Of a stretch of 42,787 bases of DNA, positions 34,168 through 42,787 are shown piece after piece. The notes under the pieces were generated by a model, which was given only the letters and a program-made list of their open reading frames with translations, made no database searches and was not told where the DNA came from. Every line of letters starts with the position of its first letter. Within the stretch, counting starts at the first letter, position 1. Source of the stretch: Candidatus Eisenbacteria bacterium (lineage in GTDB: Bacteria > Eisenbacteria > RBG-16-71-46); NCBI GenBank assembly GCA_020847735.1, contig JADLBL010000022.1, forward strand, positions 1 through 42,787, in the 5' to 3' direction. The translations under genes were made by a program, and so were the position numbers.

Positions 34168-34944
34168 TCAGTACGTGAAACCCAGCAATCCCGGGTCGGG
34201 CATCATGTCCGGGCTCCACGGGTCGGGCATCAGCTCGACCTCGCAGGGCTGCGCCACGACGCTCTCGGCGGCCGCCTTCACGTCGGCGATGAGCTGCGGC
34301 GCGTACGGGCAGAACGGCGTCGTCAGCATCATGCGCACGAACGTGCGCTGCGGCAGGAAGTGGATTTCGCGCACCAGTCCGAGATCGATGACCGACAGGT
34401 TGATCTCGGGGTCCATCACCGTCTCGAGAGCCGAGCGCACGGCCATCTCCTGCTGCGACGGCATGCTCGAGAACTCGGGCGGCCCGACCGGCTTGCGGGG
34501 CGGCGGCGCCGCGTCCGCGGCCGCGCCCGGGGCGGAGGCCGCGGGTGACGCGGCCGCCACCGGCTCCACCCAGGGCGTGCGTTCGCCGGTATGCGGGTTG
34601 ACCGGGGAGGCGGCCAGCGCGGCCGGATCCAGGCTCACCTGCACGTCGTCGCCCACGACCCGCACCGCGTAGGCCGGAACGGGCCGGGTGGCAGGCAGGC
34701 ACTTCACCGCGCCGGTGCGCACGTCGAACTTCGCGCCGTGACGCGGGCACTCGATGATCGCGCCCTCGAGCGTGCCCTCGGCCAGCGGACCGCCGTCGTG
34801 GGTGCAGATGTCCTCGATCGCCCAGAAACCGTCGTCGAGCCGGAACACCGCCACCATCGTGTCGTACACCTGCGTCACCTTGACGCCGCCCACGGCGATC
34901 TCGCCGGTGCGGGCGACCGTCACGAATCCCAGAGCGTCACTCAC
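34168..34944 (-). CDS. Rieske domain - MIP18/SufT-like fusion protein
   Basis: This 258-residue fusion has a Rieske [2Fe-2S] domain (about 1-105) with ligands in CTHDGG and CPRHGAKF, of the small ferredoxin/NirD type. A Pro/Ala linker (about 115-155) follows, then a DUF59/MIP18 domain (about 160-258) with 'VRSALETVMDPEINLSVIDLGLVREI' and 'MMLTTPFCPYAPQLIADVKAA'. DUF59 proteins such as SufT help assemble or insert Fe-S clusters, and the conserved Cys sits in TPFCPY. It is the last gene of the SUF operon; its GTG start overlaps the sufU stop. A fused Rieske module could pass electrons or itself receive a cluster. That role is inference. Confidence 0.88.
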   Translation of the reverse strand: MSDALGFVTVARTGEIAVGGVKVTQVYDTMVAVFRLDDGFWAIEDICTHDGGPLAEGTLEGAIIECPRHGAKFDVRTGAVKCLPATRPVPAYAVRVVGDDVQVSLDPAALAASPVNPHTGERTPWVEPVAAASPAASAPGAAADAAPPPRKPVGPPEFSSMPSQQEMAVRSALETVMDPEINLSVIDLGLVREIHFLPQRTFVRMMLTTPFCPYAPQLIADVKAAAESVVAQPCEVELMPDPWSPDMMPDPGLLGFTY

Positions 34945-35342
34945 GACGAACCATCCTCGTCTTCACCGGGCCACGGGGCGGTCCCATAGATGCCCGACTT
35001 CAGGGTCTTCAGCGCCAGCAGCGCGCACTTGAGCCGGACCGGCCCGAGCTCGATGCCGAGCATTTCGAGCACGTCCTCGCGCGTCAGCTTCTTCACCTCG
35101 TCGAGCGTCCTGCCCTCGACGTGTTCGCACAGCATGGAGGCCGCGGCCTGGCTGATCGAGCAGCCGTGGCCCGAGAAACGCACCTGACCGATGCGCGAGC
35201 CATCCAGCTTCACGTCCATGCGGATGCGATCGCCGCACAGCGGATTGGCGTCCTCGCAGGAGAGATCCGCGTCCTCGAGCGTGCCCTGGCAGCGCGGGTG
35301 CTGGTAGTGCTCGAGGATGTTCTCGCGGAACAGGTCGTTCAT
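34941..35342 (-). CDS. sufU: SufU-type Fe-S assembly protein
   Basis: A 133-residue protein of the IscU-like SufU family, which passes sulfur from SufS towards the SufBCD scaffold and needs zinc. Key residues are Cys and Asp in 'NPLCGDRIRM', the second Cys in 'SGHGCSISQAAASMLCE' and the third in 'GPVRLKCALLALKTL'. The insert between Cys-2 and Cys-3 is the SufU-type one. The ATG at 35342 overlaps the sufS stop and its end overlaps the Rieske fusion gene. Use of SufU instead of SufE matches Gram-positive-like and many deep-branching SUF systems. Confidence 0.95.
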   Translation of the reverse strand: MNDLFRENILEHYQHPRCQGTLEDADLSCEDANPLCGDRIRMDVKLDGSRIGQVRFSGHGCSISQAAASMLCEHVEGRTLDEVKKLTREDVLEMLGIELGPVRLKCALLALKTLKSGIYGTAPWPGEDEDGSS

Positions 35343-36631
35343 GCGCTCCCCCGCCGGACGAACACGCGCCGCGCCTCGTGCAGGCCGGCGACCAGTTCGT
35401 CCACCTCGTCGCGCTGCGAGTAGCAATGGAACGACGCGCGCGCCGAGGCCGGAACGCCGAGCTGTTCGTGCAACGGCATCGCGCAATGGTGCCCCGCGCG
35501 CACGCACACGCCGCGCTGGTCGAGCACGGTGGCCACGTCGTGCGGGTGGATGCCGTCCATCGTGAACGCGACCAGCCCGCCGCGCCGCTCGGCGGAGGGG
35601 CCCAGCACCTTCAGGCCCGGCACCCCGGCGAGCCGGTCGAGCGCGTAGGTCACCAGCTCGCGGTCGTGCGCGAAGACGCGCTCCATGCCGAGCGCCTCGA
35701 GATAGCGCACCGCCGCGCCCAGCCCGGCCGCTTCGGCGATCGGCATGGTCCCGGCCTCGAACTTCCACGGCAGCTCGTTCCACTTCGAGGACGTCAGCGA
35801 GACCTCGCGGATCATCTCGCCGCCGCCGAGGAACGGCGGCATGGCCTCGAGCAGCTCGCGGCGGCCCCACAGCGCGCCGATGCCGGTCGGGCCGAGCATC
35901 TTGTGGCCGGTGAACGCGACGAAGTCCGCGCCCAGCGCGCGCACGTCGAGCTTCATGTGCGCGGCGCTCTGCGAGGCGTCCACCAGCACCGTCGCGCCGC
36001 GCTCCTTGGCGATGCGCGCGATCTCGGCGGCGGGGTTGATCGTGCCGAGCACGTTGGAGACGTGCACGAACGAAACGAGCCGGACCCGGCCGTCGGCGAG
36101 CAGCCCGGGCAGCGCGTCCAGGTCGAGCTGGCCGTCGGCCGTCATGGGAATGAAGCGCAGCTCCACCTTTCGCCCGGCCGCCAGCAGGTGCCACGGCACG
36201 AGGTTCGAGTGGTGCTCCATGGGCGTCAGGACGATCGCGTCGCCGTCCTTCAGGAACGTCCGTCCCCACGCGTGCGCCACGAGGTTGATCGCCTCGGTGC
36301 TGTTGCGCGTGAACACGATCTCCCGCGGGCTCGCGGCATTGACGAACCCGGCGACGTGCCGGCGCGCGTCCTCGTAGAGCGCCGTCGCCTCCTCGGCGAT
36401 CCGATAGATGCCGCGGTGGATGTTCGCGTTGCACGTGCGGTAGTAGCGGTCCATCGCCTCGAGGACCGCCTCCGGCTTCTGCGAGGTCGCGGCCGAATCG
36501 AGATAGACGAGCGGCTTTTCGCGCGGCGTGGTGAAGATCGGGAAGTCCGCGCGCACACGGGCCGCGTCGAACGCGGCGGCCGCCGGCGCGTCCTGCGGGC
36601 CGGCGACCGCTCCCGTTCGCGTCGCGTTCAT
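35339..36631 (-). CDS. sufS: Cysteine desulfurase SufS
   Basis: A 430-residue PLP enzyme that removes sulfur from cysteine to give alanine plus a protein persulfide. The PLP lysine is in 'FVAFTGHKMLGPTGIGALWG' and the PLP-pocket His in 'PMEHHSNLVPW'. The catalytic Cys loop is 'VRAGHHCAMPLHEQLG', and 'SFHCYSQRDEVDELV' closes the C-terminal domain. The first ~20 residues are a variable Ala-rich stretch. It is group II, SufS-type, in line with the SufU partner encoded next. The ATG at 36631 lies 4 bases after the sufD stop. Confidence 0.97.
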   Translation of the reverse strand: MNATRTGAVAGPQDAPAAAAFDAARVRADFPIFTTPREKPLVYLDSAATSQKPEAVLEAMDRYYRTCNANIHRGIYRIAEEATALYEDARRHVAGFVNAASPREIVFTRNSTEAINLVAHAWGRTFLKDGDAIVLTPMEHHSNLVPWHLLAAGRKVELRFIPMTADGQLDLDALPGLLADGRVRLVSFVHVSNVLGTINPAAEIARIAKERGATVLVDASQSAAHMKLDVRALGADFVAFTGHKMLGPTGIGALWGRRELLEAMPPFLGGGEMIREVSLTSSKWNELPWKFEAGTMPIAEAAGLGAAVRYLEALGMERVFAHDRELVTYALDRLAGVPGLKVLGPSAERRGGLVAFTMDGIHPHDVATVLDQRGVCVRAGHHCAMPLHEQLGVPASARASFHCYSQRDEVDELVAGLHEARRVFVRRGSA

Positions 36632-36635
36632 CGCG

Positions 36636-37975
36636 TCAGCCGATCTTGCGCGCGATCTCGTCGCGCAGCCGGTCGCGCACCGCTTCGAGCGGAATGCGGT
36701 CGAGCACGGGCTCGAAGAACGCTTCCACGATCAGCCGCTGGGCCTCGATCCGCGGCAGCCCGCGCGCCATGAGGTAATACAGGTGCTCGGGCTCGACGTA
36801 GCCGATGGTGGCGCCGTGGGTGCAGCGCACGTCGTTGGCGAGAATCTCGAGTCCCGGGATGCTGTCGGCGCGCGCCTGGTCGGAGAGCAGCAGGTTGCGG
36901 TTCGCCTGGTAGGCGTCGGTCTTCTGCGCGCCCTCGGCCACCTGGATCAATCCCTGGTAGACGCTGCGCGCCTTGTCCTTCAGGCAGCCCTTGATGAGCA
37001 GGTCGCTGGTGCAGTTGGGTTGCAGGTGGCGTTGCAGCGTGTGCAGGTGGAAGTGCTGCCGCTGGTCGCCGAACATGAAGCCGTGCACGTAGGCGCGCGC
37101 GCCTGGTCCGTTCAGGTTGAACCACGCGTTCGCCTTGGTGGCGCGGCCGCCGACCATGACCTGGATCCACTGCAGTTCGGCGTCGCGCGCCAGGTCGGCA
37201 CGCGCGTTCGAGTAGTGGAACACGTTGCGGCTCCAGTCCTGCAGCGAGGCGAACGTCAGCTTCGCTCCCGCGCCGACGAACACCTCGGTGCCGCCGCAAT
37301 GGAACGCCGCCCCTTCCGCCGGCTCGGAAAGCTGCTCGTCGATCACCGTCGCTTCGGCTCCCTCCTCGAGGATCACCAGCGAGCGCGGGGCCGAAACCAC
37401 GCCGGCGCCGCTCAGCCAGTGGAAGAGCCGAATGGGCAGCGCCGCGCGCACGCCCCGGGGCACGTGCACGAACGCCCCGCCCGAATGGATCGCGGCGTTC
37501 AGTGCCGCGTACCAGTCGTAGTCGTCGTGCAGCAGCGAGCCGTAGCGGCCGGCGAGCAGCGCCTCGTGTTCGCGCGTCGCCCGATCGAACGAGCACACCG
37601 TCACGCCCTGGCGCGCCAGCGCGGGATGGGTCTGCTCGAACATCGTGCCCCCGTCACGCTGGACGACGAGGGCGAGGTTGCCCGCCTCGGCCGCGATGCG
37701 CTCGATCACCGCCGCCGGCAGGTCGTCCACGTTGCGGGCGCCGGGTCCGGTCACGCACGGATCGAGCCCCGGCAGGGCCTGCTCCAGCGCGGCGAAGTCG
37801 GTGCGGCGCCAGAGTTCCTCGTCACGCCGTGGCGGACGCAGGGTCGAGAGCGTGCCGGCCGCGGCGCGGCGGCGCTCCGCCGCCCACGCGCCCTCGCGGG
37901 CCTCGCGGGCGTGCCCGGCGGCGCACTCCGCCCAGGCGGCTTCGAATCGGGTCTGGACCGTCGGGGTGGCGGGCG

Positions 37976-37979
<4 letters not shown>
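36636..37979 (-). CDS. sufD: SufD-type subunit of the SUF scaffold
   Basis: A 447-residue SufD-like partner of SufB in the SufBC2D scaffold. The long N-terminal helical part (about 1-120) precedes the right-handed beta-helix core. Typical segments are '[12 protein letters not shown]', '[17 protein letters not shown]', '[54 protein letters not shown]', '[26 protein letters not shown]' and '[11 protein letters not shown]'. The conserved Cys and His of CTHGATIG are present. Its ATG overlaps the sufB stop. It is more divergent than SufB, as usual. Confidence 0.95.
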
Positions 37980-39381
<1,402 letters not shown>

Positions 39382-39385
<4 letters not shown>

Positions 39386-40176
39386 CGCGTCCCCACCTCC
39401 TCGCGGACCCAGTCGTAACCGCGCGCCTCGAGCTCCAGCGCCAGCTCGGGGCCGCCGTGCGTGACGATGCGGCCGTCCTTCATGACGTGCACCCGGTGCG
39501 GCTTGATGTAATTGAGGATGCGGTTGTAGTGCGTGATGACGAGCACGCCCATGTCGGGGCCGGCGAGCGTGTTGACGCCCTCCGAGACGATGCGCAGCGC
39601 GTCAATGTCGAGCCCCGAGTCCGTCTCGTCCATGATCGCGATGACCGGCTTGAGGATCGCCATCTGCAGGATCTCGGCGCGCTTCTTCTCGCCGCCCGAG
39701 AAGCCGTCGTTCAGGTACCGGTTCGCGAACTTCTCGTCCATCTTGAGCAGCGCCATCTTCTGACGCAGCAGCTCGCGGAACTCCTTCGGGGGGATGCCCT
39801 TCTTCTTCGGCATCTTGCCGTCCTCGCCGGCCGTCGGCGCGATGCGCGCGTTGAGCGCGGCGCGCAGGAAGTTCGCGAACGTCAGACCCGGGATCGCGAC
39901 CGGGTACTGGAACGCCATGAACAGGCCCGCGCGGGCGCGTGCGTCGGTTTCCATCTCGAGGACGTTCTCGCCGCGGAACAGGATCTCGCCCGACGTCACC
40001 TCGTACTTCGGGTGGCCCATCAGCGTGTTCGCGAACGTGCTCTTGCCCGAGCCGTTCGGACCCATCAGCGCGTGGATCTCGCCCTTCGCGATCTCGAGCG
40101 AGAGGCCCTTGAGGATCTCCTTGCCCTCCACGGAGACGTGGAGGTCCTTCACCACCAGTTCGGGAGTGTTGCTCAT
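39382..40176 (-). CDS. sufC: SufC ATPase
   Basis: A 264-residue soluble ABC-type ATPase that drives shape changes in the SufBCD scaffold. Walker A is '[17 protein letters not shown]', the signature is '[18 protein letters not shown]', and Walker B is '[20 protein letters not shown]', where SufC has the typical DETDSGLD. The H-loop is '[12 protein letters not shown]'. Compared with typical SufC (about 250 residues), it carries a short basic insert '[24 protein letters not shown]' after the Q-loop. The ATG precedes sufB by an overlap, and 95 bases separate it from the upstream A-type carrier gene. Confidence 0.97.
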
Positions 40177-40271: not shown

Positions 40272-40595
40272 TCAGGCCGAGAAGCTCTCGCCGCAGGCGC
40301 AGCTGTGCTTCACGTTCGGGTTGTTGAATTTGAATCCGGCGCCCATGAGGCCCTCGACGTAATCGATCTCGGTACCTCCGAGCAGTACGGCACTCTTCAG
40401 GTCCACGTAGAGCTTCACGCCGTTCGCCTCGAGCACCTCGTCACCGGGCGACTCCGCCTCGCAGAACTCCATGAAGTAGGAGTTGCCCGAGCAGCCGCCC
40501 CCGCGCACGCCGATGCGCAGTCCGATCTCGGGTGTCCCGCGCTGCGCGAGCAGATCCTGGACCTTGGTCGCGGCGATGGGCGTCAGCGTGATCAT
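40272..40595 (-). CDS. A-type Fe-S carrier protein (IscA/SufA/ErpA family)
   Basis: A 107-residue A-type carrier that delivers clusters to target proteins. Conserved cysteines are in '[15 protein letters not shown]' and the C-terminal '[16 protein letters not shown]' (CxC). It begins '[19 protein letters not shown]' as usual. The internal '[33 protein letters not shown]' is the family core. It overlaps the stop of the MerR regulator gene by 4 bases (ATGA), so regulator and carrier are coupled. Whether it is SufA, IscA or ErpA in function cannot be told. Confidence 0.95.
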
Positions 40596-41221
40596 CTGGA
40601 CTGCTCCTTTCGTGAAGCGGTTCCGGCGGCCTCGGTGCCGGGCATGGAGCCCGCGGCCGTTTCGTTCATGCCCTCGACCCGCACGAAGGCGGGCCTGCTC
40701 GTTCGCGGCGCGCCGTCAGGGGTGCTCCTGATCCCCACGACCAGCGACGGTGCGGAGACGACGCCGTGGTCCTGCTGGCAATTCACGCATGCGTGCACCG
40801 GACCCGGCGCATCGCAGTTCTCGCACGTCTCAAGGTATCGCAGCCCCTCCTCCAGTTCCGTCTCGAGCCGGCGGTGGCGGTGGATCGCCTCGCGCGTCTG
40901 CGCGAGCTTGCGCTGGAACAACTCGCGCAGGTCCGCCATCGCCGCCGGACCCCGATCCGCCGTCCACCAGTTGCGCAACACCTCGCGCATCTCCTGCAGC
41001 GAAAAGCCCAGGCCGTGCAGCGAATCAATCCAGCGCACGCGATCCACGGCCGAGGCGTCGAACAACCGGAACCCGCCGCTCGAGCGCGTCGCCGGCTTGA
41101 GCAGACCGAGCTCTTCGTAAAGACGGATGGCGCGGACGGTCTTGCCGGTTGCCCGGGCGATGTCGCCGACGCGGAGGAGCCCCTGCCGGTCGGTCGTGAT
41201 GGTCTGTGAGGTGGCGCCCAT
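40592..41221 (-). CDS. MerR family regulator with four-cysteine tail, head of the SUF operon
   Basis: A 209-residue MerR-type regulator. The winged helix-turn-helix (about 15-85) is 'LLRVGDIARATGKTVRAIRLYEELGLLKPATRSSGGFRLFDASAVDRVRWIDSLHGLGFSLQEMREVL'. A coiled-coil dimer helix (about 100-132) follows, then C133-ENC-DAPGPVHA-C145-VNC, i.e. C-x2-C-x8-C-x2-C, and a Gly/Ala-rich tail. The cysteines suggest binding of zinc or a Fe-S cluster. It is the first gene of the SUF operon, where IscR or SufR would stand in other bacteria. A palindrome with core ACGTTAACGT lies just upstream. GTG at 41248 is an alternative start but would place that palindrome inside the gene. Confidence 0.88.
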   Translation of the reverse strand: MGATSQTITTDRQGLLRVGDIARATGKTVRAIRLYEELGLLKPATRSSGGFRLFDASAVDRVRWIDSLHGLGFSLQEMREVLRNWWTADRGPAAMADLRELFQRKLAQTREAIHRHRRLETELEEGLRYLETCENCDAPGPVHACVNCQQDHGVVSAPSLVVGIRSTPDGAPRTSRPAFVRVEGMNETAAGSMPGTEAAGTASRKEQSR

Positions 41222-41555
41222 AACCCTTACGTTAACGTTAGAGTCCACCCGGAACCTACGGGGTTCGTGGCCGCTGCGTCAACGTGCCAGCCCTGCAATC
41301 TCGATGTCTGGCTCGGAAGAAGGCCGGCCGGTCCAGGGTCCGTTCGGACACCCGAACCTGGGACCCGACCGGGAGGCACGGCCAACGCCCGCAGGGAGTT
41401 GGCGGAGGCCGCGAAAGAAGCGCCCGGCCCAACTCGGATCTTGAAGCCGCCCGGCCGCCTGGTGGAGAATTTGCCGCCCTCAGACCTCTTCCGCCGCTTG
41501 CCCAGCGGGGAGGGCGTACCCGCACCTCGTCTCCCACATCTCCACGAGGCCCCTG
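41222..41555. other. Divergent intergenic region, SUF operon / secreted repeat protein
   Basis: A 334-base region between the MerR gene and the secreted repeat protein. It holds the palindrome at 41226-41241 and a possible minus-strand TTGACG (41276-41281) as -35 element. The rest shows no recognisable gene or RNA; reading frames crossing it have no supporting ribosome sites. Confidence 0.6.
41226..41241 (-). promoter_or_regulatory. Probable MerR-type operator of the SUF operon
   Basis: Imperfect 16-base palindrome CTAACGTTAACGTAAG (minus strand) with the perfect 10-base core ACGTTAACGT at 41229-41238, a striking AT-containing site in GC-rich DNA, 4 bases upstream of the chosen regulator ATG. 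Similar (C/T)TxACGTTAACGTxA palindromes are known operators of some MerR-family regulators such as LiuR. Autoregulation is likely. Confidence 0.65.
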
Positions 41556-42787
41556 ATGTCGTGCCGCCGACTGCGTTTCGCCACACCCTTCCTGCTGCTC
41601 GCCGCCATTCTGGCCCCCTCCATTACCAATGCAGCGGCCCTGCGCTGGAACAACCCCGCCGGAGGCAACTGGAACGTCCCCGGAAACTGGCTGCCCGCGA
41701 ACCTCCCGACCGCGACCGACACGGCGGTGGTCGACCTGCCGGGCACGTACACCATCACCGTCAACCAGAACGTCTCGATCGCCGGCCTGCGCGTGAACGG
41801 CTCGGCGTCCGGTACCCAGACCCTGACCGCGGTCTCGCGCACGCTCACGTTCTCGAGCCCCGTCACGCTCGGCGCGCAGTGCGTCGCGAACTGGACGAGT
41901 TGCAGCGTGACGGGCGCCGGTGCGATCGCGAACGAGGGCACCTTCAACCTCGCATCCACCTCGATCGCGCAAGCCCTCTCGAACAGCGGCACGCTCGTCG
42001 TGACCGGCACCTCGACGCAGAGCGGCGCGCTGACCACGGTCGGTGGCTCGATGCTGCGCATCTCGGGCACGGCCGCGGCGAACGGCCAGCTCACCGTGGC
42101 GACGGGCTTCACGAACAACGCGACGATCGAGCTGACCAGCTCGGGCGCCGCCACCGCGGCGACGCTGACGCTCACCGCCGGAACGCTCGTCAACGCCCCC
42201 GGCGCGCAGATCAACGCGCTCGCCGGCTCCGGCGGTGCGCGCAACCTGCACGCCCAGTACGACAACCAGGGCACGATCAACGTCTCGCAGGCGCTGTCCA
42301 CCAACCGGGCGTCGACCGACTGCACGAACAGCGGCACGATCAACGTGACGGGCGGCAACTACACGGTCGTGCTCTCGGGCACGACGCCGTCGTGGACCAC
42401 CACCGGCACGATCAACGTCGCCGCGAGCCGTACCCTGACGCTGCAGGGCGTGGTCGCCGGCGGCGCCGGCATGAACTACTTCTACAATGGCGGCACGTTC
42501 GGCGGCGCGGGCACCATCGCGCTGCTCAACTCGACGCTCAACCTGACGAGCGGGATCGCCAGCAGCATGGCGCATCTGGACGGCACGACCTCGATCGTGA
42601 ACGGGCCGTCCACGCTGACGATCAGCGGCGGCACGACCGTGCAGATGACCTCGAGCACGATCAACGCCCCGGCCGTGGTCGAGGCGGGCGCGACGCTGCA
42701 GATGGCGAGCTCGGACTTCACGGGCGCGGTGACCAATCAGGGCCTCGTCGAGTACACCGGCGCGTGCAGCCAGAACGGCGCATTCAC
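41556..42787 (+). CDS. Large secreted beta-repeat protein (N-terminal part, runs off the right edge)
   Basis: An open frame of more than 410 codons continues past the window. A signal peptide 'LRFATPFLLLAAILAPSITNA' (cleavage near 27) is followed by 'LRWNNPAGGNWNVPGNWLPANLPTATDTAVVDLPGTYTITV', a module often found at the start of autotransporter- or PEP-CTERM-like surface proteins. Degenerate repeats with N-x-G-T-(I/L/F)-(N/V)-(V/L) follow, such as IANEGTFNLAS, LSNSGTLVVTG, YDNQGTINVSQ, CTNSGTINVTG and TTTGTINVAA, about 20-30 residues apart, as expected for a right-handed beta-solenoid. It is rich in Thr, Ser, Gly and Asn, poor in Lys. It is probably a cell-surface or exported adhesin-type protein. 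GAGG lies 6 bases before the ATG. Confidence 0.82.
   Translation, partial: MSCRRLRFATPFLLLAAILAPSITNAAALRWNNPAGGNWNVPGNWLPANLPTATDTAVVDLPGTYTITVNQNVSIAGLRVNGSASGTQTLTAVSRTLTFSSPVTLGAQCVANWTSCSVTGAGAIANEGTFNLASTSIAQALSNSGTLVVTGTSTQSGALTTVGGSMLRISGTAAANGQLTVATGFTNNATIELTSSGAATAATLTLTAGTLVNAPGAQINALAGSGGARNLHAQYDNQGTINVSQALSTNRASTDCTNSGTINVTGGNYTVVLSGTTPSWTTTGTINVAASRTLTLQGVVAGGAGMNYFYNGGTFGGAGTIALLNSTLNLTSGIASSMAHLDGTTSIVNGPSTLTISGGTTVQMTSSTINAPAVVEAGATLQMASSDFTGAVTNQGLVEYTGACSQNGAF

Follow-up and report, generated by a model that had tools for sequence, protein, structure and literature searches.

A MerR-type protein at the head of suf and isc operons as a candidate regulator of Fe-S cluster biogenesis in Eisenbacteria and Myxococcota

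Cells must match the production of iron-sulfur (Fe-S) clusters to need, and a review of Fe-S biogenesis lists two families of dedicated regulators, IscR (Rrf2) and SufR, with no 'MerR' in its text (PMC8593673). In IscR, RisR and SufR, all of which bind clusters, it is the holo form that represses isc or suf (PMC9973013, PMC8593673); holo-RisR of Myxococcus xanthus is a repressor of isc as well as of suf and occupies -10/+1 or -35/-10, and the paper describing it does not mention MerR (PMC9973013). SufR, which has an ArsR/DeoR-type helix-turn-helix (HTH), occurs in Cyanobacteria and Actinobacteria, where it controls suf and acts as an autorepressor (PMC8593673). MliR of Bizionia, a MerR-like iron regulator without cysteines and without an effector domain, shares the MerR type and the iron link with the protein described here, but control of suf or isc is not described for it (PMC9478572). 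Among open-access full texts, we found no MerR-type regulator of suf or isc. Within the MerR family itself, SoxR is a [2Fe-2S] protein with a CX2CXCX5C motif, the metal sensors carry a cysteine at the start of the dimerisation helix, and the classic activators have their operator inside a promoter spacer of 19-20 bp.

The gene studied here lies in a window of 42,787 nucleotides (the whole stretch of DNA that was analysed) from a Candidatus Eisenbacteria genome (G000, 99.6% complete) with two MerR_1 matches in total. It spans 40592..41221 on the minus strand, encodes 209 aa and is supported by Pfam and NCBIfam, a predicted MerR fold and close homologues in 25 other Eisenbacteria genomes. The most likely start is the ATG at 41221, because the alternative GTG at 41248, which would give 218 aa, falls at or before the predicted transcription start. 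A Pfam search matched the ORF to MerR_1 (E=5e-13) and MerR-DNA-bind (1e-8), and the protein scores above the gathering thresholds of PF13411, PF00376 and PF09278, which places it in the MerR family; it matches MerR families only and is without the Rrf2 domain PF02082. In an AlphaFold model (metal-free monomer, mean pLDDT 82), the dimerisation helix is formed by residues 91-134, with confidence dropping around the cysteine site (block means 63-84). The best Foldseek matches of the predicted fold are MerR-family structures, including SoxR 2zhg, and the fold search yielded nothing beyond the MerR fold. In NCBIfam the protein stays below all equivalog cut-offs, namely those of CueR, ZntR, CadR/PbrR, MerR and SoxR (36.7 bits for the SoxR model TIGR01950, against a cut-off of 116.9).

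At the operon head, merR occupies the position expected of iscR or sufR. Its stop codon overlaps the start of a gene for an A-type Fe-S carrier (SufA/IscA-like; 40272..40595, minus strand; PF01521 and TIGR00049 above cut-off) as ATGA at 40592-40595, so the coupling of the two genes proposed in an earlier reading of this DNA from its letters only (the sequence-only reading) holds. The sufC-B-D-S-U series named there follows on the same strand, with all five genes above their NCBIfam cut-offs: sufC (39382..40176; TIGR01978, 345.6 bits, cut-off 212.8), sufB (37976..39385; TIGR01980, 735.7 bits, cut-off 346.4), sufD (36636..37979; TIGR01981, 279.7 bits, cut-off 222), sufS (35339..36631; TIGR01979, 558.2 bits, cut-off 475.1) and sufU (34941..35342; TIGR01994, 111.1 bits, cut-off 92.5). 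The last operon gene (34168..34944, minus strand) encodes a fusion protein with a Rieske ferredoxin and a SufT-type (DUF59) domain (PF00355, PF01883), and relatives keep both domains at the operon end. Since sufU is the sole NifU_N-type scaffold in the genome, SUF is probably this cell's only Fe-S assembly system. A genome search returned no Rrf2 match in this genome, which does have one Fur-family gene (G000:C3).

Two further features were seen. SufB in several Eisenbacteria relatives (L036:6206-8674 (-), L041:7558-9957 (-), G025, G027 and G033) has in-frame inserts of ~350 aa whose two sites differ (after residues ~238 and ~297). LAGLIDADG occurs in both, and an intein splicing domain was recognised in L041; the SufB of the window is insert-free. 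Divergent from the operon, at 41556-42787 on the plus strand, a Ser/Thr-rich ORF with a signal-peptide-like start runs off the window and has no Pfam match.

All the cysteines of the MerR protein (C133, C136, C145 and C148) sit in a C-x2-C-x8-C-x2-C tail (40778..40825, minus strand) directly after the predicted dimerisation helix; the sequence-only reading had reported a MerR protein with these four residues, and the ORF from ATG 41221 and the Pfam matches confirm it. They are invariant in 42/42 aligned homologues from Eisenbacteria and Myxococcota. Among the best 80 of 184 homologous stretches, CxxC-x7-9-CxxC is kept in 78; the loop between the CxxC pairs has 8 residues in 67 cases, 9 in 10, 7 in one and 25 in one, and one homologue has CxxxC in place of the first CxxC. 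A wider Myxococcota sample contained five more homologues with CxxxC and one with three of the four cysteines (the isc-linked exceptions are L116, L178, L182, L186, L193 and L197 with CxxxC, L099 with the long loop and L194 with three cysteines).

This pattern separates the protein from the described MerR sensors. Like SoxR, it has a MerR fold and cysteines right after the dimerisation helix, but its CX2CX8CX2C (CX2CX7-9CX2C in 78 of the best 80 of 184 stretches) differs from CX2CXCX5C, it is linked to Fe-S assembly genes and it falls below the SoxR model cut-off. The metal sensors CueR, ZntR, CadR and MerR are closest to it by sequence and fold, but it misses their equivalog cut-offs widely and has no metal-efflux neighbours; their cysteine at the start of the dimerisation helix is also absent, since the first 105 aligned residues are free of cysteine in 77/80 homologues (best 80 of 184 stretches). 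Identity with SoxR or a metal sensor was rejected on these model cut-offs and cysteine positions.

The four-cysteine tail has a wider distribution than Fe-S operons, and its being unique to them was rejected: C4-tail MerR paralogues (~28-44% identity) occur in Myxococcota away from Fe-S genes, beside genes for a deoxynucleoside kinase, a sigma factor, GTP cyclohydrolase and MlaE. The tail alone is therefore no sign of Fe-S control, and sequence comparison points to a sensor or structural module of broader use. In several Myxococcota (L201, L206, L208, L216) such a paralogue follows the deoxynucleoside kinase gene, and in G288:C309 (L249:2524-2545) an exact copy of the operator dyad described below directly follows a deoxynucleoside kinase gene, in the place taken by the MerR paralogue in other genomes; C4-tail paralogues may use the same type of site. 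At L202, L213 and L214, the genes after a more distant C4-tail MerR gene are a divergent cysteine-desulfurase-like gene and one for a carbon-nitrogen hydrolase.

To follow the gene across genomes, GTDB species genomes were scanned with a query keyed to two HTH peptides only and blind to cysteines and gene context. All of the best 80 of 184 stretches, a set that makes the observed spread a lower bound, head suf or isc genes, in agreement with the co-occurrence that the sequence-only reading had put forward as a check. Eighteen of these 80 are Eisenbacteria loci at suf and 62 are at isc-type genes, the latter labelled nearly all Myxococcota or Deltaproteobacteria; many of the homologue records are metagenome-assembled. 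Searching 47 genomes of the phylum in six frames turned up 26 close homologues, our own genome included, and all 26 lie directly 5' of A-type-sufC-B-D-S-U as far as the contig reaches, with sufC following merR without an A-type match in L041. One distant homologue in the phylum (L057) precedes IscS-like and A-type genes. In Sorangium the order is merR-iscS-iscU-iscA-hscB-hscA-fdx. A profile search matched 93 of 284 Myxococcota-phylum genomes, ~8 of these by a low-scoring paralogue only; 24/24 sampled loci from the upper score range (L177-L200) are at isc, and among lower-scoring loci seven are at isc and three stand before another cysteine-desulfurase-like gene. Because the suf-linked MerR proteins form one branch (SH-aLRT 95) in a quick tree with some long branches, a single switch between isc and suf is suggested in the history of the family.

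Within the same phylum, merR takes the place of an Rrf2 gene. In Eisenbacteria suf operons without merR, an IscR-like Rrf2 gene lies directly 5' of sufC or sufB in 7/8 genomes, counting only the eight whose suf upstream region is on the contig, and the seven do not represent seven independent events because the genomes are related. The remaining one (G012) has neither a MerR nor an Rrf2 regulator at suf, and G037 stands outside the count, its contig ending within sufC.

The predicted operator is a 22-bp dyad at the merR promoter, ACTCTAACGTT|AACGTAAGGGT in the minus-strand reading (41223..41244, minus strand), with the general form ACYCTNACGNNNNCGTNAGRGT and 34 bits of information. The palindrome that the sequence-only reading had seen at the start of merR is present at 41229-41238, but its core ACGTTAACGT is the variable, poorly conserved centre of this dyad and not the conserved operator; conservation lies in the outer half-sites, ACYCT.AC....GT.AGRGT. 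A search of related suf promoters, also proposed there, found the outer dyad at 26/26 merR-suf promoters in the 47 Eisenbacteria genomes (25 perfect and one with 1 mismatch, by a pattern fitted to those same 26 promoters). At a score of >=15 of 20, the dyad was called in 87/89 homologue upstream regions, against 0.4% of shuffled regions. Genome-wide counts weigh more, because the seed was picked after the sequences had been seen. Our own genome of 3.66 Mb has a single site at <=3 mismatches. Outside the merR-suf promoters, the 26 genomes hold two perfect dyads, one of which adjoins the same promoter, and the remaining 21 of the 47 genomes have no perfect dyad. Four complete Sorangium/Minicystis genomes (11-16 Mb) have one dyad each, with an extra 1-mismatch site in one of them, and of 32 exact dyads in the 284 Myxococcota-phylum genomes, 29 stand 25-185 bp before the HTH of this MerR protein. 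A larger regulon was sought through these scans of our own, the Eisenbacteria and the Myxococcota genomes and was not found, the dyad being near-unique per genome.

Some sites lie elsewhere. An exact dyad (L250:3133-3154; G221:C12:102632) immediately precedes a cysteine synthase-like gene, after which come JAMM- and MoeB/ThiF-like genes, all named by eye; this may be a second target, linked to the supply of sulfur, and was seen in a single genome. In one Eisenbacteria genome, a perfect dyad (L247:3699-3720; G030:C201:5198) precedes a ribonucleotide reductase gene by 309 nt. A site with 1 mismatch in G019:C133 looks like chance.

Phylogenetic footprinting of the window family delineated three conserved islands, a -35 TTG(A)C block, a -10 TANNTT block at a 17-18-bp spacing, and the dyad. 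In the window, the predicted -35 box TTGACG (41277..41282, minus strand) and -10 box TAGGTT (41253..41258, minus strand) are separated by an 18-nt spacer, and the -10 box lies 8 nt before the operator, a position conserved in f1/f2 Eisenbacteria (exactly 8 nt in 16/19 promoters of these families). From the predicted promoter, the dyad covers ~+1 to +23 in the window family. At most Myxococcota loci it begins between 5 nt inside or before the -10 end and ~17 nt after the -10 box. Such varied positions at promoters of consensus spacing fit a repressor, and so does the placement 8 nt past the -10 box in the window family. Only in family f11 of Eisenbacteria does the operator fall within the spacer, here of 18 bp and flanked by TAGACT-like and TANGAT boxes (7/7 genomes), and the classic arrangement with a 19-20-bp spacer is absent from the window promoter.

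Set beside the described Fe-S regulators, the protein resembles IscR and RisR in the position of its gene at the head of isc or suf operons, a palindromic promoter operator, cysteines in the C-terminal half and the feedback control proposed here, but it belongs to the MerR and not the Rrf2 family, has four cysteines versus three, and has ACYCTNACGNNNNCGTNAGRGT as operator versus TtGGAC-N7-GTCC. With SufR it shares four C-terminal cysteines, a dedicated operator at suf and, as we propose, autorepression; it differs from SufR, which has an ArsR/DeoR-type HTH, C-X12-C-X13-C-X14-C spacing and the operator CAAC-N6-GTTG, in all three of HTH family, cysteine spacing and operator.

The gene heads and co-occurs with suf or isc genes and has its own operator at that promoter, and we consider it very likely from these comparisons that the protein is a dedicated regulator of Fe-S biogenesis, a third type besides IscR and SufR. 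The sequence-only reading had suggested an IscR- or SufR-like role, which is supported by the suf/isc co-occurrence, the operator in related promoters and the replacement of Rrf2. That merR might be a passenger carrying a local autoregulatory site, with suf or isc controlled otherwise (for example by the one Fur-family protein of the genome), would agree with operator and merR always travelling together; however, the whole operon apparently depends on the merR promoter, given the ATGA overlap and the short downstream gaps, and the link spans suf and isc in two phyla, with merR replacing Rrf2. On linkage, replacement and operator evidence, we judged a passenger gene highly improbable. If the protein is a dedicated regulator, it is likely to be a repressor. 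As most members of the MerR family are activators (PMC9478572), it might instead twist a long-spacer promoter and turn suf or isc on when clusters are lacking, and the f11 layout, with its operator inside an 18-bp spacer in 7/7 genomes, is compatible with activation as well as with repression and is the main doubt on the regulatory sign. In f1/f2 and most Myxococcota, spacers are 17-18 bp with the operator on or 3' of the -10 box at varied distances, where a MerR activator is not expected, and classic activation seems improbable overall.

For the dedicated repressor, we propose that it sits as a dimer on the 22-bp dyad, across the transcription start of merR-A-type-sufCBDSU-T, and thereby obstructs RNA polymerase. 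Each subunit would hold a Cys4 site just past the dimerisation helix, in the region of the fold where SoxR has its [2Fe-2S] cluster. The genomic setting and the position of the cysteines make an Fe-S cluster the probable ligand. With plentiful clusters the site would be filled and the operon repressed; when clusters are scarce or damaged, it would empty, lifting repression and raising operon and regulator together. The cluster-loaded dimer is taken as the repressing form by analogy, because holo-IscR, RisR and SufR act in this way. The strongest rival to the Fe-S ligand is zinc, bound by the same dedicated regulator in a structural site or a thiol/zinc redox switch, with the protein responding to oxidants, zinc or some other signal. 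Zinc knuckles and structural zinc sites often have CxxC-x8-CxxC spacing, and paralogues away from Fe-S genes keep the Cys4 tail. Nearly all homologues have four cysteines, as against three in the Rrf2 sensors (PMC9973013). Zinc is nonetheless the unlikely choice: known dedicated regulators heading suf or isc operons bind Fe-S clusters, the metal-sensor cysteine at the start of the dimerisation helix is missing, and a compact zinc knuckle would not usually allow the CxxxC, long loop or three cysteines of some homologues. The full proposal, a dedicated autoregulating Fe-S-sensing repressor of the suf operon, appears reasonably probable to us.

More broadly, we lean modestly towards a third independently recruited family of Fe-S-cluster sensors, of MerR type, with Cys4 in a new spacing, acting as a nearly single-operon feedback repressor of suf in Eisenbacteria and of isc in many Myxococcota. 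The MerR type is present in ~30% of sampled Myxococcota-phylum genomes and most SUF-bearing Eisenbacteria, and culturable Sorangium and Minicystis make this reading directly testable. If true, it would explain isc control in myxobacteria with a MerR gene in place of iscR and, next to SoxR, could add a second lineage of MerR-type Fe-S sensing; Fe-S feedback would then have been invented again on a different protein scaffold and have crossed between isc and suf.
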